IMG/VR virus record: IMGVR_UViG_3300046387_000760
Coordinates: 1-30,538 of that record
Reading direction: 5' to 3' (one strand)
DNA length: 30,538 bases
From: a virus
In this document: piece after piece, positions 559-21,726 of the stretch
How the letters are laid out: each line of letters starts with the position of its first letter
Position numbering within the stretch: position 1 is the first letter of the stretch
Notes under the pieces: generated by a model
What the model saw: only the letters and a program-made list of their open reading frames with translations
Database searches by the model: none
What the model was told of the DNA's origin: nothing
Made by a program: the position numbers and the translations under genes

Positions 559-1238
559 AATTTTCCTATTTTATTAATTTGTTCTTTTATTATTGTTGTA
601 TCCATCCCAAGTGCAACGAATCCATAATCTTTAAATTTTGTTCTATATTCTTCCTCTATATTTGATACTAAATGAACACCCCTTTTTTCTTTTGGGATTA
701 CCTCATTAAACTTGGTTATATTAAATATATAGTTTTTGTTATTCCAATCACCTACACACCCTAAATCTGCTGTTAAATCGTAAGGTCCTAATAAATAGTA
801 ATCAAAAAGGTCTGAACCTTTAATAAAATTCAATTCTTCTATTCCTTTTTGGTTCTCTATTTGTGCAATAAGAATTACATTATTTTCTTGAAGAGGTTTA
901 TCACCCCAATCATTTTCAGATACCAATCCTTGTCCTCTTCTACCTTCTGGTGGAAACTTACACCAAGTTCTTATACTTGGAATATCTAATGTATCTAATG
1001 TTGAAAATATCAACCCACTAACTCCACTATCTAAAAGTAATCTACAAAATGTTTTTGTAGGTTCTGTAATTCTTACAAATGATTTCTTACCACTTGCATT
1101 TATTAATTGAATTAGTGTAAATAATGTTTCATTATTAAATACACCATGTTCTGTATCTAAAACTATACCATCACAGGTTGAATTACAATATAATTTTGTA
1201 ACCTCAGTAGATGGTATTTGTTGCCAAAGTAATTTCAT
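546..1238 (-). CDS. HpcH/HpaI-family aldolase
   Basis: A 230-residue TIM-barrel-type aldolase of the HpcH/HpaI family, which makes or cleaves 2-keto-3-deoxy acids using pyruvate and an aldehyde with a divalent metal. Family signatures are visible: GIVLDTEHGV near residue 30, the PPEGRRGQG loop near residue 98, and AQIENQKG near residue 125 carrying the metal-binding Glu of the family. A longer reading opens at TTG 1247, but that codon lies inside the -7 promoter box. ATG 1238 is the first start that a transcript from this promoter could carry, 6 bases after the box, so I chose it; the mRNA is probably leaderless or nearly so. It forms a two-gene unit with the SIS isomerase. I infer that it supplies an ulosonic-acid-type sugar to the CMP-transferase encoded nearby; general HpaI catabolism is an alternative. 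Confidence 0.85.
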   Translation of the reverse strand: MKLLWQQIPSTEVTKLYCNSTCDGIVLDTEHGVFNNETLFTLIQLINASGKKSFVRITEPTKTFCRLLLDSGVSGLIFSTLDTLDIPSIRTWCKFPPEGRRGQGLVSENDWGDKPLQENNVILIAQIENQKGIEELNFIKGSDLFDYYLLGPYDLTADLGCVGDWNNKNYIFNITKFNEVIPKEKRGVHLVSNIEEEYRTKFKDYGFVALGMDTTIIKEQINKIGKLWQD

Positions 1239-1244
1239 ATTGTA

Positions 1245-1276
1245 CAAATATACGAAAAATATTTTTAATTTCCAAA
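1245..1276 (-). promoter_or_regulatory. Bacteroidota-type promoter for the aldolase-SIS unit
   Basis: Read on the minus strand, the -33 box TTTG is at 1276-1273 and the -7 box TATATTTG at 1252-1245, with 20 bases between. The bases TTTTTCG sit directly before the -7 box, as at the other promoters here. It lies inside the last codons of the upstream gene and ends 6 bases before the aldolase ATG. Confidence 0.85.
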
Positions 1277-2029
1277 CAAATCATCAAATTTTTTCTTCTC
1301 ATATGCTGTAATCGCTGAATTGTATCCAGCATTGTAGATTTTTCTACCAGCAATATCATAGAATTTTTTTGCAGTAAGATGAGTTGTATTCATTCTCCAA
1401 AACTCATGAGCACCATCTCCAATGTGTGCATGGTAATCTTTGTGAAAATGATTTATATCACCAGCATCAGTACCTTGAGTATTTGTTGCAGTTTCCCAAT
1501 TTGAATCACATCCAATTACATAAACCTCTTCATAGTTCATATAGTATGCAAGTTGAAGTGCAACATTCATACTTGTACCACTCTTATCTAATCTTTCCCA
1601 TGCATTAGTTGAAAAACAATTATCATTACCAACAGAGTTTTCTGAGAATTTATTTAAGTATATTGTTTTCTCAGGTAGTGTACCTTCACCATTTCTTTCT
1701 ATTGCGGGTTTATATCTACTCCAAATCAGAGGAGTTGTTTTTGGTTCATGTGATGCTTTTAAAATACTTTTTGACCATTCTTTACCCCACCGAGCATCTT
1801 CACAATTAGATGAACAAAAAAAGTAATAGGTTGGTCTCCATTTTGTTTTTTCATAAATCAATTCAATACGATTCATTGCTATTGTATCTTCATTTTCTAA
1901 TAGGTCTAAATCCATATCATTTAATGAAGGACCATTTCCTACTAGAAAAACTCTTTTACCTAAACCAATATTTTCTAAATGTGAAATTGGGTTAATTGAG
2001 CTTAAACTTAAATTAATTGTTTGTGCCAT
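1265..2029 (-). CDS. NGPSL-motif glycosyltransferase-like protein (GT42 sialyltransferase / DUF115-like)
   Basis: A 254-residue protein. The diagnostic part is VFLVGNGPSLNDMDLDLL (about residues 27-44) followed by EDTIAMNRI, the nucleotide-binding start shared by CstII-type (GT42) sialyltransferases and DUF115/MptE-like proteins. A second conserved block, SGTSMNVALQLAYYMNYEEV then YVIGCDSNW (about 150-178), matches the region of those families that follows the donor site. No membrane segment or signal peptide is visible, so it should act in the cytoplasm. Its start overlaps the CMP-sugar synthetase gene by 17 bases, which fits use of a CMP-sugar made by that neighbour. I infer transfer of a nonulosonic or KDO-like sugar. 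The acceptor is unknown, and DUF115 members with other functions remain possible. Confidence 0.6.
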   Translation of the reverse strand: MAQTINLSLSSINPISHLENIGLGKRVFLVGNGPSLNDMDLDLLENEDTIAMNRIELIYEKTKWRPTYYFFCSSNCEDARWGKEWSKSILKASHEPKTTPLIWSRYKPAIERNGEGTLPEKTIYLNKFSENSVGNDNCFSTNAWERLDKSGTSMNVALQLAYYMNYEEVYVIGCDSNWETATNTQGTDAGDINHFHKDYHAHIGDGAHEFWRMNTTHLTAKKFYDIAGRKIYNAGYNSAITAYEKKKFDDLFGN

Positions 2030-2681
2030 AATTTTCTAATGTTTTTACTAAGTTCCAATCTTGTTCTGTATCTATATCTAAATTGTATGGAAATTCAATT
2101 GGAAGTACTTTTGGATTCTTACCAATTCTATTACCATATTTCAGTACACTTTTTTTAAATAAATACAGATATGAATTTTCCATATAGTATTTAGGTAAAT
2201 CTTGTGTCTGTTCTAATATCATTGGATTGTGATTTATCGGAGCCAATCCATATTCTTCATCTCTCCAAAATCTGTTTTGGATTACATCTACTGAAAATAT
2301 TGAATCATGTTTAGATTCTTTTATTTCTTCTTTAAGTGATTCCAAATGTTCTACTTTTAAAAAAGGTGATGTTACATGAATCTGACAAATCCAATCATCA
2401 TCAGTATAATCAGTTCCTGCAGTTGTTTTACAGAAATAATTCTTTATTAAATCTACCACCGATACATCATCCCCTTGTAGTGCATAAGGTCTGTAATAAC
2501 ACATAACCCATTTTTTATCAATACATTGTCTAATAATATCATGTGAATCAGTATCTACTACAACTTGAAAATCTTTTAACTTATCAATTGTATGTTCCCA
2601 TAAAGGTTTGCCATCAAACTCTCTGAAGTTTTTCTTTGGTACTCTTTGTGAGTTTTCTTTTATTGGAATGTATATTATCAT
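2013..2681 (-). CDS. CMP-sugar synthetase (acylneuraminate/KDO cytidylyltransferase family)
   Basis: A 222-residue GT-A-fold cytidylyltransferase. The N-terminal signature IPIKENSQRVPKKNF (residues 5-19) followed by DGKPLWEHTI corresponds to the IPARxGSxRxxxKN...GxPL pattern of NeuA/KdsB enzymes, which activate sialic acids or KDO with CTP. HVTSPF (near residue 123) matches the conserved QxTSPL block, and the C-terminal LDIDTEQDW carries the Asp residues usually involved in metal binding. Length fits the family (about 225-250). It overlaps the upstream GT29-like gene by 4 bases and the downstream NGPSL gene by 17. Sitting between two sialyltransferase-like genes, it probably makes their donor. 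Whether the substrate is sialic acid, KDO, legionaminic acid or another ulosonate cannot be read from the sequence. Confidence 0.85.
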   Translation of the reverse strand: MIIYIPIKENSQRVPKKNFREFDGKPLWEHTIDKLKDFQVVVDTDSHDIIRQCIDKKWVMCYYRPYALQGDDVSVVDLIKNYFCKTTAGTDYTDDDWICQIHVTSPFLKVEHLESLKEEIKESKHDSIFSVDVIQNRFWRDEEYGLAPINHNPMILEQTQDLPKYYMENSYLYLFKKSVLKYGNRIGKNPKVLPIEFPYNLDIDTEQDWNLVKTLENYGTNN

Positions 2682-4273
2682 TTTACTTCTAAAATTTGTT
2701 TCATAGTATCATCGATTGATACTCGATTGTCATTTAAATATATTTCTCTTACCAAATCTTCTTGTGGTTTTTGTCTATGATTTCCATCGAACTCACCTTT
2801 TAACCACTTCTCTTCTTTTTTCTTACCCTCTACTTCACCAAATATTTCAGTATGGTCTTTGTATGATTTTCTCCAACCATCTCTAAACCAAGTGAAACCT
2901 GTAATATGTAACTCTTTCAAATCATAACAAAGTAAATCAAGAATTGTAAGAGTACCTGAGTTTGCTCTTGTTCCTAACATATTAGCAATCTCTAAGTAGT
3001 AATCAGTATTTAGAACATGAAATCCTAAATCATATTTTTTGTTTACATTTTCAAATCTTGTTACATCACCATGAAATGGTCCAACATATTTTGGATAAGG
3101 ACAAGATACAAATACATTATCTAATTTCATTTCATCATAAAATACTGGTCCTCCACAATGCATATCAGTACATAAACAATGATAATGAATATCTGTTCTC
3201 GAACCAATATCATCTGTTAATCCTTCTTCTATTGGAAATGCTTTATTGATTCTAACTACAATATCATATCCATCTATTTCTTTTCCTTTACCACTTCCTT
3301 CAAGAGATGGAGATGGACCAACTACAATTACTTTTTTATCTTTAAGTAACTCATTGTACTGAGAATCATACTTACCATCCTTTCTAATATCTAACCACTT
3401 ATCGTATGTAAATCCTGGTGGATTATCTACTTTACTTGGTTCTCTATGAATAATATTTTTGTATTTGTTGATAAGTTTTTCTTTTAATTGAGGACTTCTA
3501 TCGTATTGATGTACAATTGAAAAGGGTTCTCCTTTTTGATTTCGGATTAAATCATCTACGATTGGAGTAGGTTCTAATAATTTATCACCGAAGTGGTCTT
3601 TCTTAATTAGAACAGTTCCAAGTTGTGTTGCAAATCCATCTTCTTGTGGTGTGAATTGTACAATATCTTTATATTGAGTTTGATTGATTAAAACATTATA
3701 TGCTGCTTGGTCTGATAATTGTTCTGGATTAGAACTTGTTAAACTCCATCTATAAATGTTTATAAACAAATCTCTAATGTATTCTTTATCACCAGCAATA
3801 GTTCCTGCACAATGTGATGTTTTATTTTGTAACCATTCCCATTCCATAGGGAAAGATGTTCCTGCATTTGTAACTGCCCATTCATCATCTTTAAATGTAA
3901 TACATTCTGAACAAGCAATGATTGGTTTGGTTTGATTCTGATTTAACCAATGAGAAGGATTTGTTTGAAATATAACATCTTTAACATCAGTCCAAATAAT
4001 TCTATCACAATCAATATCTTTTAACATATAATGTAAATCCAAAAACCTCTGTAAGATAATGTGTTGATTTAGTTGTGATTGATATACATCGAATTGAGAT
4101 GCTTTAAGATAATCAATTACATCTTTTGATACATCATATACCAACATCATTTTATCACCACTATAACCACTCTTATTGATTGATTCTACCCAAGGTTCAA
4201 TATCTGATTTGGAGTATTTAGTGATACAACCTACTAATAAATCTTTTTTCGAATATGGTTTTATTTTATCCAT
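2678..4273 (-). CDS. Two-domain glycosyltransferase: GT-A-like N-terminus fused to GT29-like sialyltransferase
   Basis: A 531-residue protein with two probable catalytic domains. The N-terminal part (about 10-265) has a GT-A look, with RIIWTDVKDVIFQTNP (91-106) supplying a DxxD-type metal/nucleotide site. The C-terminal part (about 313-531) matches GT29 sialyltransferases: VIVVGPSPSLEGSGKGKEID (315-334) then VVRINKAF and DIGSRTDIHYH (355-365) resemble sialyl motif L, and GTRANSGTLTILDLLCYD (434-451) then LHITGF resembles sialyl motif S. GT29 is best known from eukaryotes. No membrane anchor is visible, unlike Golgi enzymes. It overlaps the CMP-sugar synthetase downstream by 4 bases and the nucleotidyltransferase upstream by 13. 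I infer that it adds two sugars in sequence, the second from a CMP donor. The N-terminal family assignment is tentative. Confidence 0.7.
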   Translation of the reverse strand: MDKIKPYSKKDLLVGCITKYSKSDIEPWVESINKSGYSGDKMMLVYDVSKDVIDYLKASQFDVYQSQLNQHIILQRFLDLHYMLKDIDCDRIIWTDVKDVIFQTNPSHWLNQNQTKPIIACSECITFKDDEWAVTNAGTSFPMEWEWLQNKTSHCAGTIAGDKEYIRDLFINIYRWSLTSSNPEQLSDQAAYNVLINQTQYKDIVQFTPQEDGFATQLGTVLIKKDHFGDKLLEPTPIVDDLIRNQKGEPFSIVHQYDRSPQLKEKLINKYKNIIHREPSKVDNPPGFTYDKWLDIRKDGKYDSQYNELLKDKKVIVVGPSPSLEGSGKGKEIDGYDIVVRINKAFPIEEGLTDDIGSRTDIHYHCLCTDMHCGGPVFYDEMKLDNVFVSCPYPKYVGPFHGDVTRFENVNKKYDLGFHVLNTDYYLEIANMLGTRANSGTLTILDLLCYDLKELHITGFTWFRDGWRKSYKDHTEIFGEVEGKKKEEKWLKGEFDGNHRQKPQEDLVREIYLNDNRVSIDDTMKQILEVK

Positions 4274-4959: not shown

Positions 4960-5810
4960 TTATCTAAACTTAAAATATATTCTCTTAATCTATCTTCTGG
5001 TTTCCATCCTAAAATTTCTAATGTATCATCATTATCTCGTAAAGTTTCACGATAGTTACCTGGTTGGTCTGGTATGTAAACATGGTCACATCCATATCTT
5101 TCTCTAAACATCTGTGCAACATCATTGATTGCATAATTTACACCACATCCAAGTTCCCAAGCATCTTTGTGTCTAACATCAGTTTCAGATACTTTAACCA
5201 AACCATCTACGATATCATCTACATGAGTAAAATCTCTTCTTTGTTCACCATCACCAACAATTGTTATTGGTTCTGAATTGAAAACTTGAGTTCTCCATAT
5301 TCCAAGTAATGCTGCATAATCTCCATCAGTTGTTTCACCTGGTCCATATACATTATAGAATCTACAAATCTCTACATTAACATCAAATGTTTTTTTGTAA
5401 AGTTTACAAACTTCTTCACCTAAGTATTTGTACATAGCATATGGTGAATCTGATGGGTTATGGTGTTTTGATGATGAACCTGCATAAACAACTTTTATAT
5501 TGTTATGTCTTGCCCATTCCATTACTGATTCTGTTCCTTTTACATTAACCCTAAAACATTCTGTTGGGTCATCAAATGATGGTTGTATTCTACTTAATGC
5601 TGCTAGATGATAACACACATCATATTCTCCTTTCAGATATTCAATTGTTTCTATATCTGCATTTATATACTTCACACCTTCTATGTGAGTACTTCTATCA
5701 CCAGTTGAGTAATCATCTAAAGAAACTACTCTATGACCCTCGCTTACCAATCTTTTAATTAGATTAGAACCGATGAATCCTGCTCCGCCTGTTACTAATA
5801 TTTTTTTCAT
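4956..5810 (-). CDS. NAD-dependent sugar epimerase/dehydratase (GalE-like extended SDR)
   Basis: A 284-residue extended short-chain dehydrogenase. The Rossmann motif VTGGAGFIGSNLI (residues 6-18) binds NAD, and SLDDYSTG follows as in UDP-sugar epimerases. The catalytic pair is YAMYK (YxxxK, about 123-127), with the serine in AGSSSKHH just before it. RFYNVYGPGE and RRDFTHVDDIVDG are standard family blocks in the substrate-binding half. UDP-glucose 4-epimerases and UDP-GlcNAc epimerases are the closest types I recognise; dehydratases of nucleotide sugars are possible. It overlaps both neighbours by 4 bases, which points to translational coupling with the nucleotidyltransferase that may supply its substrate. 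Confidence 0.85.
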   Translation of the reverse strand: MKKILVTGGAGFIGSNLIKRLVSEGHRVVSLDDYSTGDRSTHIEGVKYINADIETIEYLKGEYDVCYHLAALSRIQPSFDDPTECFRVNVKGTESVMEWARHNNIKVVYAGSSSKHHNPSDSPYAMYKYLGEEVCKLYKKTFDVNVEICRFYNVYGPGETTDGDYAALLGIWRTQVFNSEPITIVGDGEQRRDFTHVDDIVDGLVKVSETDVRHKDAWELGCGVNYAINDVAQMFRERYGCDHVYIPDQPGNYRETLRDNDDTLEILGWKPEDRLREYILSLDK

Positions 5811-9182: not shown

Positions 9183-9706
9183 TCATCTGTGGTATCTGGT
9201 TGAGAAGTTTCTTCTCTAATTATTGTTCTTTTTTCTGAAGAAGATGTTTTTTCTCCGAATAAGTTTTCTAAAACTTCTTGTTCAAATCTTATTTCGTAAA
9301 TGTTTTGTATCTTATCAATAAAATATGTTCTATAATTGTTGAAATCTTTTCTATATAAATTTTTATTATTCTTTATATGTGCATCAAAAAGATTATTACC
9401 AGTCGGGTCAAACTTCTTTAACATATATTCTAATCTTAAATCAGAAGATAGTGGTAATCTTTTATCACGCAACTTACCAATTAATTGTGTAAAGTGAAGT
9501 GGATTAATTGGATTGATTTTTATACAATGTATTTTTTTATCAATAATACCTATCACAAAAACATATCTTGCTTCTTCTGCTGTTTTAGTTGGTGGGTTAC
9601 CTCCTTTATAGGTGGTAATTCTATAAATATTTCTTGGTCTTATTTGACTCTGAGATATTCTTTTCTCTGGTCTTAAAAGTTTAACATATTGTCTTGTAAA
9701 TGCCAT
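9179..9706 (-). CDS. Hypothetical phage protein, 175 residues
   Basis: I do not recognise this protein with certainty. The N-terminus is basic (residues 1-34, many Arg/Lys, with RPRNIYRITTYKG), then comes a beta-rich stretch YVFVIGIIDKKIHCIKINPI and a mixed part with GNNLFDAHIKNNKNLYRKDF then NNYRTYF, ending in a Ser/Thr/Glu-rich tail. The general layout (RPxxxY..Y, a VxGxIDxxIHCIKIN core, then NYRTY) recalls small structural or neck-type proteins in T4-like phages, but I cannot name one. It overlaps the upstream GT4 gene by one base (TAATG) and the GT2-like gene by 4, so it is cotranscribed with glycan genes although it shows no glycosyltransferase motif. Confidence 0.7.
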   Translation of the reverse strand: MAFTRQYVKLLRPEKRISQSQIRPRNIYRITTYKGGNPPTKTAEEARYVFVIGIIDKKIHCIKINPINPLHFTQLIGKLRDKRLPLSSDLRLEYMLKKFDPTGNNLFDAHIKNNKNLYRKDFNNYRTYFIDKIQNIYEIRFEQEVLENLFGEKTSSSEKRTIIREETSQPDTTDE

Positions 9707-10974
9707 TATATTTTATTTACAGATGGTAATTTAAATTCAACTTTTTTTGGTTGTACTTCAACCTTAACATATTTTTCAAGTATAGAACCTAACTTTTCAG
9801 TCATCTTAGAAAGTATAAAGTTTTTATTAATATTAGATTTCAATCCTTGAGAATCTTTTAAATACTTTTTATAATTCTTATGAACATCAAATATTTTACT
9901 TGCTGCTTTAGAATAATCTACACTAAACCACTTTCCTTCTTTCAGTAAAAACTTATTAGCAGCTGATTCATGTATGTTTGTAAGTTCACCTTCTAAGTAA
10001 ACAGTATTTTCTTCTGGTAAGAAATCTTTATATCCACTCCAATTTGAAACAATGATTGGTTTACCTGTTGTAGCAAACTCTGCAAGTGGTCTACCATAAC
10101 CCTCACCTTTAGTGAACATTAACATTGCTTTAACTTTATCATCATTATATAAATCATTTAGTTCTGATTCAGATAAATCTCCGAATACTAAATGAATAGG
10201 AGGACACTTATCACCAAATTCTTTTGTTGTGAATTTAATCTTTTCTGCAATACCTTCTCTATCACCTACTCCGAAACCTGCACCTGATGTCTTTAATATA
10301 AGACCTGGTTGTTGATTCTTTGGTAAGTTTTTGAAAACTGTACAGAATGTTTTAATCATCATTCCTACATCTTTCCTATCTTGTCCTAAATCACCTTGTA
10401 ACCAATGTCCTACAAATAAGAAATTAAAATCTGTATCAACTGAATCTAGTATTGATGTTTTAGATTTACCATCAAATATAGAAGTATCTACACCTTCAAA
10501 TAAAACTTCAACTGGTGAATCTAATTTAATTTTTCCTAATTCTTTTTGAGTTTGTTTATCAACTTGAGTATATGTAGTATTTACTAAAACATCTTTTGTA
10601 AACTCTGATGGAGTTATTATTAAATCCATATTATTACCACCTGCTAAAAATTCTTGTGGTGCAACAGTTGTTTCAACTCCTGCAGTAATACCGATATTGT
10701 ATTTACCAACTTTCTTGAATTCATTTGCAACAGATACTTGTATAAAGATATCAATCTGTTTATCAACTTTTGTTACTATGTTTTGTAGAATTTTTTGTCC
10801 AAATTCAGTTTGTGGATTGATTTGGTCTTGTGGAGTGTTTCCCCATCTTGTTGGTACAATCTTTACATCGTACTTATCTAATTCAAATAATGATTTCAAG
10901 ATATCTCTTGAATGGTCACCATAACCACTTCTTGTAGCAATAGGTGCCTGAAATATTAATAAAGGTTTGTCCAT
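9706..10974 (-). CDS. Family 4-type glycosyltransferase (GT-B fold)
   Basis: A 422-residue GT-B enzyme. The N-terminal domain opens with IFQAPIATRSGYGDHSRDIL, where the Gly-rich GYG loop is typical of GT4 acceptor domains. IITPSEFTKDVL (about 138-149) and VEVLFEGVDTSIF (about 175-187) are standard GT4 blocks linking to the C-terminal Rossmann half. FNFLFVGHWLQ opens the second domain, and TKGEGYGRPLAEFATTGKPI (about 294-313) is the E-x7-E-like donor-site region, followed by VSNWSGYKDFL. No membrane segment is visible. Its start overlaps the stop of the next gene by one base (TAATG), so it is coupled to a second GT4-type gene of a different subfamily. Confidence 0.85.
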   Translation of the reverse strand: MDKPLLIFQAPIATRSGYGDHSRDILKSLFELDKYDVKIVPTRWGNTPQDQINPQTEFGQKILQNIVTKVDKQIDIFIQVSVANEFKKVGKYNIGITAGVETTVAPQEFLAGGNNMDLIITPSEFTKDVLVNTTYTQVDKQTQKELGKIKLDSPVEVLFEGVDTSIFDGKSKTSILDSVDTDFNFLFVGHWLQGDLGQDRKDVGMMIKTFCTVFKNLPKNQQPGLILKTSGAGFGVGDREGIAEKIKFTTKEFGDKCPPIHLVFGDLSESELNDLYNDDKVKAMLMFTKGEGYGRPLAEFATTGKPIIVSNWSGYKDFLPEENTVYLEGELTNIHESAANKFLLKEGKWFSVDYSKAASKIFDVHKNYKKYLKDSQGLKSNINKNFILSKMTEKLGSILEKYVKVEVQPKKVEFKLPSVNKI

Positions 10975-11717
10975 TATCTTAATTTATAAACGTTAAACTT
11001 TTCTTTTGGTTTCCAATTCTTGAATGTGGTTTCAATTCCATCAACAAGTGTTTTACACATATTTTTAGCATTTAATCCCATATCACCTAAAAAGGCATCT
11101 CTACCAATCTGAGCTGCTTCTCTTCTATCTTCTGGTGCTTTATCATACCAATATCTGATTGCATCTGCAACTTCATCTACATCTACTTTATCATCTATGA
11201 TATATGGTGTTGGTATTGAACCAACGATAGTTTGAACTCTTGGCCAAACTGGTTTTACCCATTCACCATGTGTTACTTTATCTTCCCATTCTTTATAATT
11301 GTGAAGTGAACCAATCTCTTTGTAATCTTCGGCAGTTAAATACTTACCATCTACTTTGAATCCACATTGGTCTTGTAATCCACCAGTAACATTTACAATG
11401 ATAGGAGTACCTGCCATTACTGATTCAGCAGTTACTAATCCAAATCCTTCGTTACCTGCGATGTTGATTGTACAATCTGAAAGGTTGTATAGATAATTTA
11501 ATTCTTCTACACTCAATCTATCAGTTGAAAATTTAATATCACAACCTGGTGCTATTCTATCTGCAACAGCAATTAAATCTGTACCATTTTTATCTTGTGG
11601 TGCAGTGTGCATTACTAAACAAACTTTATCTCTATCTTCCTCTGGTAATCCATCAACAAATTTTTTGAATCCCCAAATCACATCCGATGGTTGTTTTCTT
11701 TTGATATTTCTGTTCAT
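10974..11717 (-). CDS. C-terminal fragment of a GT4 glycosyltransferase split by an in-frame stop
   Basis: A 247-residue frame from ATG 11717 that carries the donor-binding half of a GT4 enzyme: FKKFVDGLPEEDRDKVCLVM, then LYNLSDCTINIAGNEGFGLV (about 71-90) and ESVMAGTPIIVNVTGG, the E-x7-E region. The N-terminal half is missing from this frame. Upstream codons in the same phase are open back to a TAA at 11937-11939 and continue as the gene ending there. The internal Met is preceded by FVLFW, normally the first strand of the GT-B second domain, so ATG 11717 is probably not the original start. If expressed alone it would lack the acceptor domain. It may be read as part of a 459-codon gene if the stop is suppressed or is a sequence error. 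Confidence 0.75.
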   Translation of the reverse strand: MNRNIKRKQPSDVIWGFKKFVDGLPEEDRDKVCLVMHTAPQDKNGTDLIAVADRIAPGCDIKFSTDRLSVEELNYLYNLSDCTINIAGNEGFGLVTAESVMAGTPIIVNVTGGLQDQCGFKVDGKYLTAEDYKEIGSLHNYKEWEDKVTHGEWVKPVWPRVQTIVGSIPTPYIIDDKVDVDEVADAIRYWYDKAPEDRREAAQIGRDAFLGDMGLNAKNMCKTLVDGIETTFKNWKPKEKFNVYKLR

Positions 11718-11936
11718 CCAAAATAGAACGAACTTATAATCTTTATCATTGTAGAGTTTCTTCTTAAAATCCTCTGGTACTATTGTTGGTTTATAAACAT
11801 CTGAGTTGATACCATGAGGTACATAAGATACTTGCCAATCTTCTAATGGTTTGATTGTTTCTGAATCTAATTTTCCAACTCTACTTACAATACCATAAGT
11901 TTGTCTTGAGATACATCCTAACCAATCACATGATTC

Positions 11937-11939
11937 TTA
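11937..11939 (-). other. In-frame TAA interrupting a GT4 glycosyltransferase gene
   Basis: The frame starting at ATG 12353 is open without interruption to 10974 except for this one TAA. I translated 11700-11940 by hand; the phase matches on both sides (12353 minus 11717 is divisible by three) and the bridging codons encode ESCDWLGCISRQTYGIVSR, a normal GT-B inter-domain segment. A single base change to TAT or TAC would restore Tyr. Confidence 0.85.
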
Positions 11940-12353
11940 ATAGTTTCTATTGTAATGTGGGTCTGGTAAGTCATCCCATATATGATAAAATAAAATTGGA
12001 ATGTTTTGTCTTAATTCAGCTTCCATATCGTATAACCATCTCCAATATCTTGGGTCTGTAAAGTGAAGAATCGCATCTGGTTGATGTCTCATTATCAATT
12101 CTCTTAGAATATTAGCATCTCCATACCCAGTCCATGGGATAATTTTAAGTGATGCATCTTTGATACCACTTATCTTTCTTGCATCTTCACCCAAATCGAT
12201 TTCTTTACCTTTTTCTGGATGATTTACTGCTGCTCCTAATTGAACCCAATCATATTTATCAAAAGTTCCAAATACTAATTGTTTTGAAACTGTTGCAATA
12301 CCTGATGACATTCTCAAATCATCAGATAGTAATAGAATTTTCTTCTTTGCCAT
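11937..12353 (-). CDS. N-terminal fragment of a GT4 glycosyltransferase split by an in-frame stop
   Basis: A 138-residue frame whose product resembles the acceptor-domain start of a GT-B enzyme: KKKILLLSDDLRMSSGIATV (residues 3-22) with the Ser-Gly-rich loop, then IIPWTGYGDA, DAILHFTDPRYWRWLYDME and FYHIWDDLPDPHYNRNY before a TAA. GT4 enzymes are normally 350-450 residues, so this is a third of one; the rest follows in the same phase downstream of the stop. The gene begins 10 bases after the 45-residue small gene. With the stop taken as Tyr, the product would be 459 residues with a complete GT-B layout. Confidence 0.75.
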   Translation of the reverse strand: MAKKKILLLSDDLRMSSGIATVSKQLVFGTFDKYDWVQLGAAVNHPEKGKEIDLGEDARKISGIKDASLKIIPWTGYGDANILRELIMRHQPDAILHFTDPRYWRWLYDMEAELRQNIPILFYHIWDDLPDPHYNRNY

Positions 12354-12363
12354 TAAAATTTGT

Positions 12364-12501
12364 TTAAATTGTTCTAAATCTTCTGTGGTTGTTTAACTTA
12401 ACTCTCATAGTTTGTCCTAAATACTTTTTAGTTTCAACTCTATCGTTGAATTCATTACGAGTTTGATTAAGTTGGTTGTTACCGTTGTCTTGTTGTTTCA
12501 T
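12364..12501 (-). CDS. Small basic protein, 45 residues
   Basis: I read this small frame by hand: ATG at 12501, TAA at 12364-12366. The product starts MKQQDNGNNQLNQTRNEF, is rich in Asn and Gln at the N-terminus and turns basic at the end (LGQTMRVKLNNHRRFRTI). It begins 2 bases after the stop of the ribbon-helix-helix gene and ends 10 bases before the split GT4 gene, and it fills that gap almost exactly, which supports it being real. I recognise no family. A role as a partner or co-regulator of the upstream DNA-binding protein is only a guess from position. Confidence 0.55.
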   Translation of the reverse strand: MKQQDNGNNQLNQTRNEFNDRVETKKYLGQTMRVKLNNHRRFRTI

Positions 12502-12503
12502 AA

Positions 12504-12698
12504 TTAAAATTGAGAACCACTTTCGTGTAGGTTCTGATATCCATTTATTTCTGTTCTGAATGACTCATCTTCTATATATTTGTCAACTGAACGATTTACT
12601 AATTTTTGTAACGTAATGTTTGAATCGAAAGAGATTCTTTTAAACCTTGAGTAAATATCTTTGATGATTTTTACTGTTGTTAATTTTGTTTCTGCCAT
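12504..12698 (-). CDS. Ribbon-helix-helix DNA-binding protein (Arc/MetJ-like)
   Basis: A 64-residue protein with the ribbon-helix-helix pattern: a short strand TKLTTVKI, helix 1 KDIYSRFKRISFDSN, turn, helix 2 LQKLVNRSVDKYIEDES. Such proteins dimerise and bind operator DNA with the strand. The frame extends upstream to 12809, but ATG 12698 starts the conserved domain and has AAAGGA 7 bases before it, one of the few Shine-Dalgarno-like sites in this window, so I chose it. The upstream reading would overlap the nuclease gene. It is the first gene of a run of closely spaced glycan genes and is a candidate regulator of them or of its own promoter. It could also act elsewhere in the phage. Confidence 0.7.
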   Translation of the reverse strand: MAETKLTTVKIIKDIYSRFKRISFDSNITLQKLVNRSVDKYIEDESFRTEINGYQNLHESGSQF

Positions 12699-12718: not shown

Positions 12719-12748
12719 TGAATATATATAAATATATAAATTTACAAA
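12719..12748 (-). promoter_or_regulatory. Possible weak promoter for the ribbon-helix-helix/glycan operon
   Basis: On the minus strand TTTG at 12748-12745 is followed after 18 bases by TATATTCA at 12726-12719, a partial match to the -7 box, inside an alternating TATATA tract. It lacks the TTTCG before the -7 box seen at the strong promoters. The position, 20 bases before the ribbon-helix-helix ATG, is suitable. Confidence 0.35.
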
Positions 12749-13675: not shown

Positions 13676-14128
13676 TTAAACCTTTAATTTTAGTTTTGTT
13701 ATTTGTTTTTTATCAATTCCATATTTCTCACAGATATACTTTACATTTTCTCTACCTTCTCTTGTAGCATATAGAATCTCACAGTACTCTTCTGATTCTT
13801 TTTTTGAACATTGGAAATCTTCCTTTATCAAATCAACTAACCAACTTTCATACTTACCATCTTTTTTACCTTTGGTGTATTTTAAGTAATATCTACCTTT
13901 TGGAATGATTCCAATTAAAGTAAGGTATAAATGTTCTGGTGGTAATTGTTGTGTATATGGTTGTAATTCTGAAAGAACTTCTATCCAATCAGGATTCATA
14001 GATAAGAAACGATGTACCATATAGTTACTCCATGTTTTCTTATCTGCCTCTTCAAGTGTTTCCCAATACTTTGGGTTTTGTACAGAGGTAACTGCTTTTA
14101 TGTGGTCAAATAATGATTTAGTTGCCAT
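13676..14128 (-). CDS. 62: Clamp-loader small subunit, gp62-like
   Basis: A 150-residue protein that I assign to the T4 gp62 clamp-loader subunit by layout: an N-terminal helix with SLFDHIKAV, then WSNYMVHRFLSMNPDWIEVL (about 33-52), then HLYLTLIGIIPKGRYYLKY (about 66-84), which matches the gp62 pattern of NRxLS..P and a short hydrophobic helix before PKGKRY.KW. T4 gp62 is 187 residues, so this one is short. It works with the gp44 ATPase to load the gp45 clamp at primer ends. It overlaps the SGNH-like gene upstream by 11 bases. In T4 gene 62 lies next to 44; here about 2 kb and several genes separate them. The assignment rests on distant similarity plus the presence of gp43, gp44 and gp45 nearby. 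Confidence 0.65.
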   Translation of the reverse strand: MATKSLFDHIKAVTSVQNPKYWETLEEADKKTWSNYMVHRFLSMNPDWIEVLSELQPYTQQLPPEHLYLTLIGIIPKGRYYLKYTKGKKDGKYESWLVDLIKEDFQCSKKESEEYCEILYATREGRENVKYICEKYGIDKKQITKLKLKV

Positions 14129-17446: not shown

Positions 17447-17974
17447 TAATTTCATAACTTTTTTTACTGTTTTTGGTCCAACCTCTATTTCGTGGTAAGG
17501 AACTTTGTTTTCTTCTAATACTTTTTTACACAATTTATCTATCTCAATTGATTTTTCTAAATCTTGAAATCTCTCATCATCATTGTGTACTGATTTACCT
17601 CGTTTTAATAAGATATTGATACTATCATATTTTCTATGTAAATCAATAACTAAGTTATGGAAAGGTTCTCCATAAAATTCAGCAGGATATCCTTTTGTAT
17701 AATATCTATGATAAATTGTAGAAAATAGAATCGGTGAATCGATTACTATATAATCTACTTTATTATAACATTCTGCTATTCCTCTATGTTGATTAGCAAA
17801 TACATAGAGTTGGTCTGATATTGCTGGTATATTGTGGTCCCAAGCTAATCTTTTGGGAAATTCGTATGGGTTATTACAACTGATGTGTTGTTTTTTTAGT
17901 TTGTAGGTGATACCATTTGCAATTGAAGATTTTCCAATACCAGGTCCACCGAAGAGGTTTATCAATTTGCTCAT
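17429..17974 (-). CDS. P-loop NTPase, nucleoside/nucleotide kinase-like
   Basis: A 181-residue P-loop protein. LINLFGGPGIGKSSIANGIT (residues 4-23) holds Walker A GGPGIGKSS, DYIVIDSPILFSTIYHRYY (about 74-92) gives a Walker-B-like DSP, and LLKRGKSVHNDDERFQD (about 121-137) resembles the LID arginine segment of small-molecule kinases. This layout is shared by NadR-type ribosylnicotinamide kinases, deoxynucleoside kinases and AAA_28-type proteins. The size suits a kinase. It overlaps the S1/P1 nuclease gene by 4 bases, which would fit phosphorylation of nucleosides released by the nuclease, but that is only a contextual inference. Confidence 0.7.
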   Translation of the reverse strand: MSKLINLFGGPGIGKSSIANGITYKLKKQHISCNNPYEFPKRLAWDHNIPAISDQLYVFANQHRGIAECYNKVDYIVIDSPILFSTIYHRYYTKGYPAEFYGEPFHNLVIDLHRKYDSINILLKRGKSVHNDDERFQDLEKSIEIDKLCKKVLEENKVPYHEIEVGPKTVKKVMKLLGKSK

Positions 17975-18732
17975 TCTCCAAATATCTCATTTAAAAGGTT
18001 ACCCAATCTGATTCCAGCGAGATACAATCTCTCATCTACGATTGGTAAATTCTCATATACATAGTCATATGATAAATATGAACCATCCTTTGTTTCATAA
18101 ATCTTAGATACATACTCATGAGATTCATTTGCCCAATCCTCAGCATTTCCTTGTTCCACTACTGTATCTTTAAATTGGTTTTGTAGTTTGGTAGCATATT
18201 CTGTATAACTCATTTTATAATCATCAATCATATCAGTATCCCAAAGTACATGAAGATTGGTGTTATTCTCTGCACCCTTTCTACCTTTGAATTTTACTTT
18301 GATTTTACTTCCACCATAATCTTTTGCTCTACCTGTATGAAGTGGTTGGTGTACATCTCCAACCATATGAACTAAATACTTTAACCAAAACTGTTTTACT
18401 TCTTTATCGGCCATTGGTGATTTAAGAATAGGAATTGCTGTGTTAATCATTTTAACTACATTTGGTCCTAAATGTTCTACATCACCATATTCTTTATCAA
18501 GGGGAAGATTAACATAATGCCAAGTTGAATATTTATCAAACTCTGGATTACTTCTCATTTCATCAGCCCAAGTACTTGCAACTGCAAGTGATTGACCATC
18601 TAATATTTCATTTATTTTTTGTTCTGCGGTGAATGTTAATTGTCTTTGTGCAATCTCACCAACTGTTCTGTGTCCTATTTTACCCCAAGAACTAAGGAGT
18701 AGTACTGATAGTACTAATAATAACTTTTTCAT
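17971..18732 (-). CDS. Secreted S1/P1-family nuclease
   Basis: A 253-residue zinc-dependent nuclease with an N-terminal signal peptide (KKLLLVLSVLLLSS, residues 2-15). Cleavage before Trp16 would expose WGKIGHR, matching the S1/P1 rule that the mature N-terminal Trp binds zinc. Other metal ligand blocks are visible: STWADEMR, TWHYVNLP, LVHMVGDVHQPLHTGRAKDY (about 136-155) and NLHVLWDTDMI (about 178-188). These enzymes cut single-stranded DNA and RNA and some remove 3'-phosphates. The product should reach the periplasm or the outside. It lies between a small membrane protein gene and a kinase-like gene with 4-base overlaps. Such an exported nuclease is more usual in host genomes than in phages. 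Size and motifs look intact. Confidence 0.9.
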   Translation of the reverse strand: MKKLLLVLSVLLLSSWGKIGHRTVGEIAQRQLTFTAEQKINEILDGQSLAVASTWADEMRSNPEFDKYSTWHYVNLPLDKEYGDVEHLGPNVVKMINTAIPILKSPMADKEVKQFWLKYLVHMVGDVHQPLHTGRAKDYGGSKIKVKFKGRKGAENNTNLHVLWDTDMIDDYKMSYTEYATKLQNQFKDTVVEQGNAEDWANESHEYVSKIYETKDGSYLSYDYVYENLPIVDERLYLAGIRLGNLLNEIFGE

Positions 18733-19020: not shown

Positions 19021-21726
19021 TTAGAATCTTACTTTAAGAGAAGTATTGAAAGTACGTCCGAATCCGAACCATACTGAGTTTCTCGTATCAATTCCATTCC
19101 ATGTTTCTGAACTACCATCTGTGTGGATGTTAGTATTAGATTCTGCAATGTAGTAAGTATCAAATAAGTTATTTACGTTAACTCTAAACGATGCATCAGA
19201 ACCGAATAAATCAAATCTGTAAGTTGCTCCTAAATCAGCCAATCCATAAGAAGGTAATTTTAAAGCCCCTAAGTTACCAGGTTGAGTAAATTCTGAGTCT
19301 GTGATTGAATAATCAGCATATAAACCATCAACAAATCTATATCCTAAATCAACTCTTAATCCTTGGATTACTTCGTAATCTGCTTCAACATAAGATGTGA
19401 ACTGTGCCGCATCTCCTACTTTAGCATCTTTCAAGTACAATGTACCTGTTCCGATTGATTGTTGATTATCATCAAATAATTCTGCTGAGAAATCATTAGT
19501 ATATCTCCAATCACCGATTGATAACATACCTTTTAATCTCAACTTATCTGTTGGGTTATAAGAAGTTTCAACTTCGATACCATTGTGTAATACATCGATA
19601 TCTTTAAATTGAGCTGAACCATCTACACCTTGTTGGTTAGATAAACTTCTTTGAACGAATCTATTACCCCATACAGTAGAATATGCATTAACATTAACTC
19701 TAAAGTTATTACCAATGAAACCATATCCTAATTCGAATGATTTAATTTCTTCGTTTTGTAAATTTGGATTAATTGTATTTCCATAATTAGGGAATACTGC
19801 ACCAAAATTTGGTTGTCTTGAAATTACACCAGCATTGAAGAATACGTTTTGTTTATCATCGATGTTCCAATTGGCACCACCTTTGATATATCCTCCACTT
19901 TGGTTTTGAGTTTCTGATTCTGGATTTGCTGGTTGGTCGAAGTAATCAATTCTTTGGAAAGATTGATTAGAAGTACCTGCTTGTAATACAGCTGATACTT
20001 TATCGTTGTTATATTCAACTAAACCATTGAATCCTTGCCATCCAACTTTACCAACATTGTAATAATCAATCTTCGGTCCTCTAATACCAGTATTTTGGAA
20101 TGGATTTGCTTCCACCAAAGTATTGATAATTTGACCAGCAGAGTTTTTATTACCTGTTGAGTAATATCCATCTAATCCCATAAGGTTGTTCACTACTCTG
20201 TAATGATAACCTGTATAGTTTCTTAAATCGATACCTACTGAGTATTTCCAATTTCCACTTTCATATTCTAAGTTAGAGATTGCTCCAACCCAGTCATGAG
20301 AGTTCATAGATGCTCTTCTAATAAGTGCACTTCTGTTAACACCATCATCTTGGAATCCATTAGAACCAATTAACTGACCAGCGAATGGTAAATCACCACT
20401 ATAAGGGTCTGTATTTGCTTGATTGTATGCAACAACTGCATCAAAATCAATAAACCCTTCAGGAGTTCTTGAACCTCTGCCGTTTTCTAAGTAGTGTTCA
20501 GTTAAATCTTTTCTGAAAGGTAAGATATCAGTTTCCGAGTTGTAGTAACTTCTACCTCTTGGACCTGTTCCACCACCTCTACCAGCTGAACCATATAATG
20601 ATGTAGCTAGTTTAAGGTTATCAGAAATATCCCAATCCCAATTCAATGTTGCTAATGGTTTGTTATAGAAGTTTCTTCTCATTGAGAATTCTTCACCATT
20701 TAAAACACCACCATTGGAATTCCATCTTCTATCAATTCCTTCTTCACCGAAGTTTTGGTAATCTCTAATAGAAACCCAAACATCTCTTTGGTGATGCCAT
20801 TGTCCAGCACCTAAGAAAGAAAAGTTAACAGAATGGTCTGAATCTTCAGGTGCATATCCTAATGCAAAGAAGTAAGTATAACCTTCTCCTTTTGTATTAT
20901 AGATATATCCATCTCCTTGCCACTTAGAAAGTAACACAGATGTTGCCCATCCATTTTCATTTAGACCAGTTGAGTGAGCCACAGTAGTTTTAAAGTATCC
21001 ATCGTTACCAAATGATTGTTGTACAGATGAACCCTTCTTAGCTTCAGCAGCCTTCGTAAAAATAGAAACAGTTCCACCTACTGATGGTACTGCTAATCTC
21101 GAAGCCCCAAGACCTCTTTGTAATTGGATTCCACTTGCAACATCTGTAAGACCTTGCCAGTTAGACCAATAAACCCATCCATTTTCCATATCATTTACTG
21201 GTTGCCCATTGATAAGGAAAGATGTGTTTCTTTGGTCGAATCCTCTTAGAGAGATTCTTGAATCACCATATCCACCACCTTGTTTGGTAGCATATACTCC
21301 TGGTGTTTTATTCATGATTTCAGGAAACTCTTGGTTACCTACTTTGAGTGCGATTTCTGATGGTGAAATACTTGAAACTGCAACAGGTGTTTCTCTCACC
21401 TTAGCAACATCAATTACACCAGAAGTAACTACAACCTCACCTAATTGATTCAAGTCTGGAACAAGTCCAATAATTTCATCAATACCAGCAGAGATTTCTG
21501 CAGTTTCGTACCCTAGATAAGAAACAATAAGAAGTGTCCCTTCCTCAACATCTAAACTAAATGTTCCATCAAAACCAGTTACAGTTCCATCCGCCGTTCC
21601 TTGAACGATAATGGTTGCTCCTGGTAGAGGGTCATTAGTTTCAGTGTCAATTACTTTCCCACTAATTTGTGCAAAAGTAGTGATACTCGTTAAGAGCATC
21701 AATCCAACTAATAATAGTTTTCTCAT
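19021..21726 (-). CDS. TonB-dependent outer-membrane receptor
   Basis: A full-length 901-residue outer-membrane transporter. A signal peptide (MRKLLLVGLMLLTSITTFAQ, cut after Ala19 or Gln20) is followed by a carboxypeptidase-D-like domain (about 21-95: ISGKVIDTETNDPLPGATII, VSYLGYETAEIS), found mainly in Bacteroidota receptors. The plug domain (about 105-225) has TPVAVSSISPSEIALK, PGVYATKQGGGYGDSRISLR and NGQPVNDMENGWVYWSNWQG, and ends with SVGGTVSIFTK. The rest is a 22-strand-type barrel closing with SLKVRF, whose terminal Phe suits BAM insertion. It would import a large nutrient using TonB energy, or serve as a surface receptor. No SusD partner gene is adjacent, so a siderophore/cofactor type is more likely than a SusC glycan type. 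A weak promoter may lie in the 60-base gap upstream. By eye it is more GC-rich than the phage genes around it, a sign of gain from a host. Confidence 0.93.
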   Translation of the reverse strand: MRKLLLVGLMLLTSITTFAQISGKVIDTETNDPLPGATIIVQGTADGTVTGFDGTFSLDVEEGTLLIVSYLGYETAEISAGIDEIIGLVPDLNQLGEVVVTSGVIDVAKVRETPVAVSSISPSEIALKVGNQEFPEIMNKTPGVYATKQGGGYGDSRISLRGFDQRNTSFLINGQPVNDMENGWVYWSNWQGLTDVASGIQLQRGLGASRLAVPSVGGTVSIFTKAAEAKKGSSVQQSFGNDGYFKTTVAHSTGLNENGWATSVLLSKWQGDGYIYNTKGEGYTYFFALGYAPEDSDHSVNFSFLGAGQWHHQRDVWVSIRDYQNFGEEGIDRRWNSNGGVLNGEEFSMRRNFYNKPLATLNWDWDISDNLKLATSLYGSAGRGGGTGPRGRSYYNSETDILPFRKDLTEHYLENGRGSRTPEGFIDFDAVVAYNQANTDPYSGDLPFAGQLIGSNGFQDDGVNRSALIRRASMNSHDWVGAISNLEYESGNWKYSVGIDLRNYTGYHYRVVNNLMGLDGYYSTGNKNSAGQIINTLVEANPFQNTGIRGPKIDYYNVGKVGWQGFNGLVEYNNDKVSAVLQAGTSNQSFQRIDYFDQPANPESETQNQSGGYIKGGANWNIDDKQNVFFNAGVISRQPNFGAVFPNYGNTINPNLQNEEIKSFELGYGFIGNNFRVNVNAYSTVWGNRFVQRSLSNQQGVDGSAQFKDIDVLHNGIEVETSYNPTDKLRLKGMLSIGDWRYTNDFSAELFDDNQQSIGTGTLYLKDAKVGDAAQFTSYVEADYEVIQGLRVDLGYRFVDGLYADYSITDSEFTQPGNLGALKLPSYGLADLGATYRFDLFGSDASFRVNVNNLFDTYYIAESNTNIHTDGSSETWNGIDTRNSVWFGFGRTFNTSLKVRF

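Follow-up and report, generated by a model that had tools for sequence, protein, structure and literature searches.

The locus considered here raises the question of what one in-frame stop codon in a phage glycosyltransferase gene means: a gene being lost or switched, a codon that is read through, an enzyme made in two pieces, or an accident of a single record. The window, that is, the whole stretch of DNA analysed, is the 30,538-base IMG/VR virus record IMGVR_UViG_3300046387_000760. Its Pfam and PHROG matches (a family B DNA polymerase, a clamp-loader A subunit, an AAA clamp-loader-like protein and a PD-(D/E)XK exonuclease) point to a tailed phage, with a replication gene set like that of the T4 type. 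Sugar genes run across about 2–12 kb of the window. At 2013–4273 (minus strand), a CMP-sugar cytidylyltransferase-like gene adjoins one whose 531-residue product partially matches a sialyltransferase (GT29), and these genes may possibly serve a phage-encoded, sialic-acid-like decoration. Elsewhere, the contig carries a gene for a 901-residue TonB-dependent receptor with a CarboxypepD_reg-like domain (19021–21726, minus strand) and, near it, an S1/P1 nuclease gene (17971–18732); both are possibly host-derived.

The interrupted frame had been placed at 10974–12353 in a first-pass annotation that omitted the strand. The coordinates and the frame stand, and the strand is minus; the same interval on the plus strand contains many stops in frame. 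Read on the minus strand, the gene runs from an ATG at 12353 to a TAA at 10974–10976, a total of 459 codons plus the terminal TAA, and the only internal stop is the TAA at codon 139 (11937–11939 in plus-strand numbering). As that annotation had described, the two halves share one phase and the codons between them are open, and the frame contains no further lesion. The N-terminal fragment (11940–12353, minus strand, 138 codons) has no PHROG match by itself; the C-terminal remainder (10974–11936, minus strand, 320 codons plus the stop) carries the donor-binding domain and matches glycosyltransferase profiles in the PHROG search. Because these profiles match and each half aligns unbroken to single intact open reading frames (ORFs) in relatives, the split is real in the record and does not reflect a chance pair of ORFs. 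Annotation should therefore mark one interrupted gene at 10974–12353. At its 3′ end, the glycosyltransferase stop overlaps the start of the next gene in the sequence TAATG (10972–10976, minus strand). This next gene (9706–10974, minus strand) is intact and encodes a second, distant GT4-like protein (phrog_2170).

The proposed assignment to GT4 agrees with several lines of evidence. With the TAA read through, the joined frame scores 33 bits against PF00534 Glycos_transf_1 (cut-off 26.4) and 31.1 bits against PF20706 GT4-conflict (cut-off 26). An E-x7-E motif is the mark of retaining GT4 enzymes, and its two glutamates, E302 and E310 (11424–11450, minus strand, downstream of the TAA), are invariant across 16 aligned sequences, the neighbouring glycosyltransferase among them. 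An AlphaFold2 model of the joined frame, of moderate confidence (pLDDT 73.8, pTM 0.77), adopts a GT-B fold with two Rossmann domains. The best PDB matches of this model in Foldseek are the chlorella virus NY2A glycosyltransferase 3oy2 (3oy2_A, E 1.7e-13) and MshA, both glycosyltransferases of the GT-B fold class. Sequence and model thus indicate that the joined frame would be a member of the GT4/Glycos_transf_1 family. As it stands, the gene does not encode both domains in one product, since it is open for only 138 residues.

The stop codon itself appears in no relative. In a first scan of viral contigs, codon 139 was Tyr in 39/39 relatives (10 TAC, 29 TAT), the residue that had been expected from the sequence. 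One of these contigs, L002 (IMGVR_UViG_3300048549_001320), is a near-identical twin of the window, matching it at 5578/5580 aligned bases. The two differences are codon 139, which is Tyr in L002, and position 13994, a third codon base at which the change is synonymous; one base is thus enough to explain the break, as first proposed. An exact-flank scan that left base 11937 free returned eight contig stretches, one of which (L041) is not part of the first-scan 39, and all eight have A or G at 11937 and hence Tyr. Five more scans for related loci brought the total to 250 distinct copies, each with 60% or more of the gene and all free of a stop at codon 139. By unique, we mean unique among the records compared; very close records could include another carrier. 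Of 50,697 named-phage records, 10 have a match to the glycosyltransferase, every one at less than 60% identity; Flavobacterium phage immuto and Microcystis phage Mel-JY01 are among those in which the match reaches at least 80% cover. No relatives of the glycosyltransferase were found in the cellular genomes scanned.

Our results support a reading, to which we give a probability of roughly 90%, in which the TAA is an isolated nonsense change of one base, private to this record, and due either to a sequencing or assembly error or to a null variant that is rare and not fixed in the sampled population. We prefer an error or a rare dead copy to a new mechanism because the relatives, including the near-identical twin, lack the stop. 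Between the two, we slightly favour a base-calling or assembly error over a rare variant. By sequence, the glycosyltransferase gene is otherwise intact and is conserved in the phage lineage, and the stop in the window is most likely an ordinary event that involves no new mechanism. Across 23 window genes, a random single substitution produces a stop in about 6.2% of cases, and two random differences would include at least one nonsense change about 12% of the time; one nonsense change among the two differences from L002 is thus unremarkable. Comparable lone nonsense codons occur elsewhere. Codon 49 of the glycosyltransferase is TGA in L137/L217, where relatives have Gly codons, and codon 111 of the clamp-loader A gene of L239 is a lone TAG, where three siblings of 99.8% identity have GAG. 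This second stop lies in a presumed replication gene, which makes an error or a defective genome likelier there than a loss of adaptive value. The changes in the window and in L239 are both G:C-to-T:A, a class that accounts for 25% of the possible nonsense paths in window genes; the L137 change belongs to it as well if, as we infer, its parent codon was GGA, although three cases are a small sample.

If the base is real, translation would end after 138 residues, at a codon that falls in helix 132–141 of the N-domain in the AlphaFold2 model. The remainder of the N-domain, the whole donor-binding C-domain and E302/E310 would be missing from the product. The only early in-frame restart, at the first ATG past the TAA (codon 213; 11715–11717, minus strand), would begin inside the C-domain; because codon 213 lies within model strand 208–213, the C-domain made from such a restart would be incomplete. 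Both fragments should therefore be dead, with loss of glycosyltransferase activity. The TAATG overlap suggests that the two glycosyltransferase genes are likely to be translationally coupled, so that expression of the downstream glycosyltransferase might be reduced as well.

The strongest alternative, which we nonetheless consider improbable, is that the stop is an established null allele of an enzyme that is being lost or is dispensable on some hosts, with decay or on/off switching of glycosylation. A second GT4-like gene adjoins the interrupted one, as might suit such a loss, and interruptions are more frequent here than in the surrounding genes: 6/250 glycosyltransferase copies are interrupted, compared with 1/1015 copies of ten neighbouring genes. 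This census, which supersedes a smaller one with 4/144 copies interrupted, covers 113,419 glycosyltransferase codons and 247,892 neighbour codons, and its excess has a Fisher p of about 0.0003 by copies (0.0015 with L208 and L329 counted as one event) and a binomial p of 0.014 per codon. Partial matches to IMP dehydrogenase in L329, L177 and L336 were excluded from the broken count; in L329, it is an intein-like split gene. The excess may point to weaker constraint on the glycosyltransferase gene than on those around it.

The six interrupted copies are a mixed set, however, and only L137 resembles the window; in the other five, the break falls at the domain linker, close to it, or at a conserved early stop. 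Those of L038 and Mel-JY01 are at the linker (residue 174), that of L186 is just past it (codon 198), and L208 and L329 have one conserved site in common. In L186, the interruption is an in-frame TAA at 3088–3090 with a local fold of z -3.1; the nearest relative, L187, is open at that position. The evidence from the window itself also argues against an established allele: the stop occurs in one record only, the frame has acquired no second lesion, and the open frame of the twin contig speaks against the suggestion that glycosylation is decaying as a fixed state. Phase variation, another cause that had been put forward, fares no better, with neither a contingency repeat nor an invertible segment at the codon 139 site by which the gene could be switched. 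Near the gene, only two short, low-score repeats were found, both outside it (12360–12379 and 12724–12741), and a search for repeat pairs gave one distant 18-nt direct pair and no inverted pair.

Far less probable still is that the TAA is read through or bypassed, by a suppressor tRNA, a reassigned TAA or programmed recoding, to yield the full-length enzyme. The frame is open on either side of the TAA, as this would require, but the rest of the window behaves as though TAA were an ordinary stop. Twenty-three of the 36 reading frames in the window end in TAA, the glycosyltransferase and 22 others; 10 end in TGA, two in TAG, and one runs off the contig. Only the glycosyltransferase frame has an internal stop. 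Moreover, relatives exchange TAA, TAG and TGA at corresponding gene ends, in a comparison that excludes counts for 12504–12697. These observations dispose of reassignment, in agreement with the original view that TAA is not generally reassigned here. Suppression, which had been listed as a candidate cause, finds no more support: no tRNA genes were found in the window, and although 3/10 related records have tRNA genes, ARAGORN named no anticodon that reads a stop in 30 loci of three large relatives, where a few anticodons were unreadable and cover was partial. Programmed recoding is likewise disfavoured by the lack of any stop at codon 139 in the 250 copies and by the local RNA, which has a predicted fold around the TAA (z -1.7) like that of L002, where the codon is Tyr (z -1.8). 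The codons at the site, TAT-TAA-GAA, offer no matched landing codon. We therefore regard recoding at the window's own stop as very improbable. Among the titles listed by a literature search, none dealt with a stop mutation in a glycosyltransferase gene that belongs to the phage itself.

Equally remote is a natural two-piece glycosyltransferase: although two relatives, Mel-JY01 (annotated as two CDS; L077:6001–7492) and L038 (197–1684), do encode the N- and C-domains in separate ORFs, they break at the linker (residue 174) and their second ORF starts at an ATG of its own ahead of the C-domain, just before the motif YVPHG, whereas in the window the frame is cut within the N-domain (codon 139) and the next ATG, GTG or TTG is not reached until codon 213. 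The phage enzyme thus does occur in two-piece form in some relatives, but a single stop of this kind, seen in one metagenome contig, ought not to be read as evidence of a two-gene enzyme, of gene decay or of recoding.

A different stop, of which the window has no trace, is conserved in a small clade of relatives. In L208 (IMGVR_UViG_3300042539_000902; also L439), L329 (3300042691_019608; also L440) and L441 (3300032116_012780), the same glycosyltransferase has an in-frame stop at codon 27 (L208:2446–3891; L329:3459–4904; L441 196–330, minus strand). The frame opens with ATG TCA GAA CAA, and the stop lies in a six-base in-frame insertion after DDLR, as part of a motif CGR-stop-CGA that reads CGG TAG CGA in L208 and CGA TAA CGA in L329 and L441. 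A degenerate scan of viral contigs for stop-or-Trp codons at the site returned only these three. L329 and L441 are 99.55% identical across 3788 bases, and L208 and L329 are about 79% identical over the glycosyltransferase gene; the three contigs count as only two independent sequences. The whole gene has a dN of 0.14 and a dS of 1.29, similar to its neighbours, which indicates purifying selection rather than decay. In the 27 codons around the early stop, dN is 0 and dS is 0.29; this low local dS reflects constraint on the nucleotides, and the dN of 0 is thus only weak evidence of translation. Directly upstream lies a 21-bp hairpin whose end coincides with the first base of the codon preceding the stop. 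Its z-scores are -3.4 and -3.9, compared with 0.2 in a sibling without the stop (L322), and it is kept in all three contigs with one two-sided change, although with three sequences 181/500 shuffles did as well.

These features raise the possibility, which we put forward tentatively and think doubtful on balance, of a natural in-frame stop hop in the three contigs, in which the ribosome would take off from CGA or CGG, skip TAA or TAG and land on CGA, aided by the hairpin. Omitting six bases, the stop and one CGR codon, would restore DDLR-LTSG, the exact family sequence. The two Arg codons of L208 are not fully matched, which weighs against a hop, and no tRNAs were found in the three contigs. 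The nearest alternative is readthrough with two extra residues. If translation does cross the early stop, this clade, in which a stop near the glycosyltransferase start is conserved along with a strong hairpin, would provide another rare example of bypassing or readthrough encoded by a phage. Two other features of L329 lie close by. Its IMP dehydrogenase gene (964–3395) is divided at Hint/intein-like ends, and a distinct NUMOD3/DUF559 endonuclease-like gene (1844–2797) sits between the two parts, an arrangement like a split-intein 'fractured gene'. Between the two glycosyltransferase genes, where L208 has no such gene, lies a free-standing NUMOD3 gene (5075–5680) that matches HNH weakly.

In comparison with known systems, the joined frame in the window resembles the GT4 family (PF00534, PF20706, phrog_2170) in its above-cut-off PF00534 and PF20706 matches, its E-x7-E motif and its predicted GT-B fold, whereas the window copy stops at codon 139 and its fragments make no complete GT-B enzyme. 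The protein QQO92007.1 of Flavobacterium phage vB_FspM_immuto_3-5A is 42.9% identical across 99% of the protein, and its locus is alike as well, with a PD-(D/E)XK nuclease gene upstream nearby and a second glycosyltransferase directly downstream; unlike the window copy, it is intact. In Microcystis phage Mel-JY01, the same enzyme (WWT39373.1/WWT39374.1, 48.7% identity) likewise occupies more than one ORF, but the pair is split at the domain linker, each ORF has its own start, and no single nonsense codon is involved. For the early stop of L208, L329 and L441, the nearest known counterpart is T4 gene 60. A 2016 review (PMC5009743) states that no occurrences of in-frame stop hopping were known; it also describes the gene 60 stem-loop at the take-off site. 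The gap of the candidate hop is 6 nt in the three contigs, compared with 50 nt in T4 gene 60 (PMC5009743). The two are alike in the following features: the stop stands right behind a possible take-off codon, the stem-loop ends at the take-off codon, and a like codon is present for resumption (PMC5009743).
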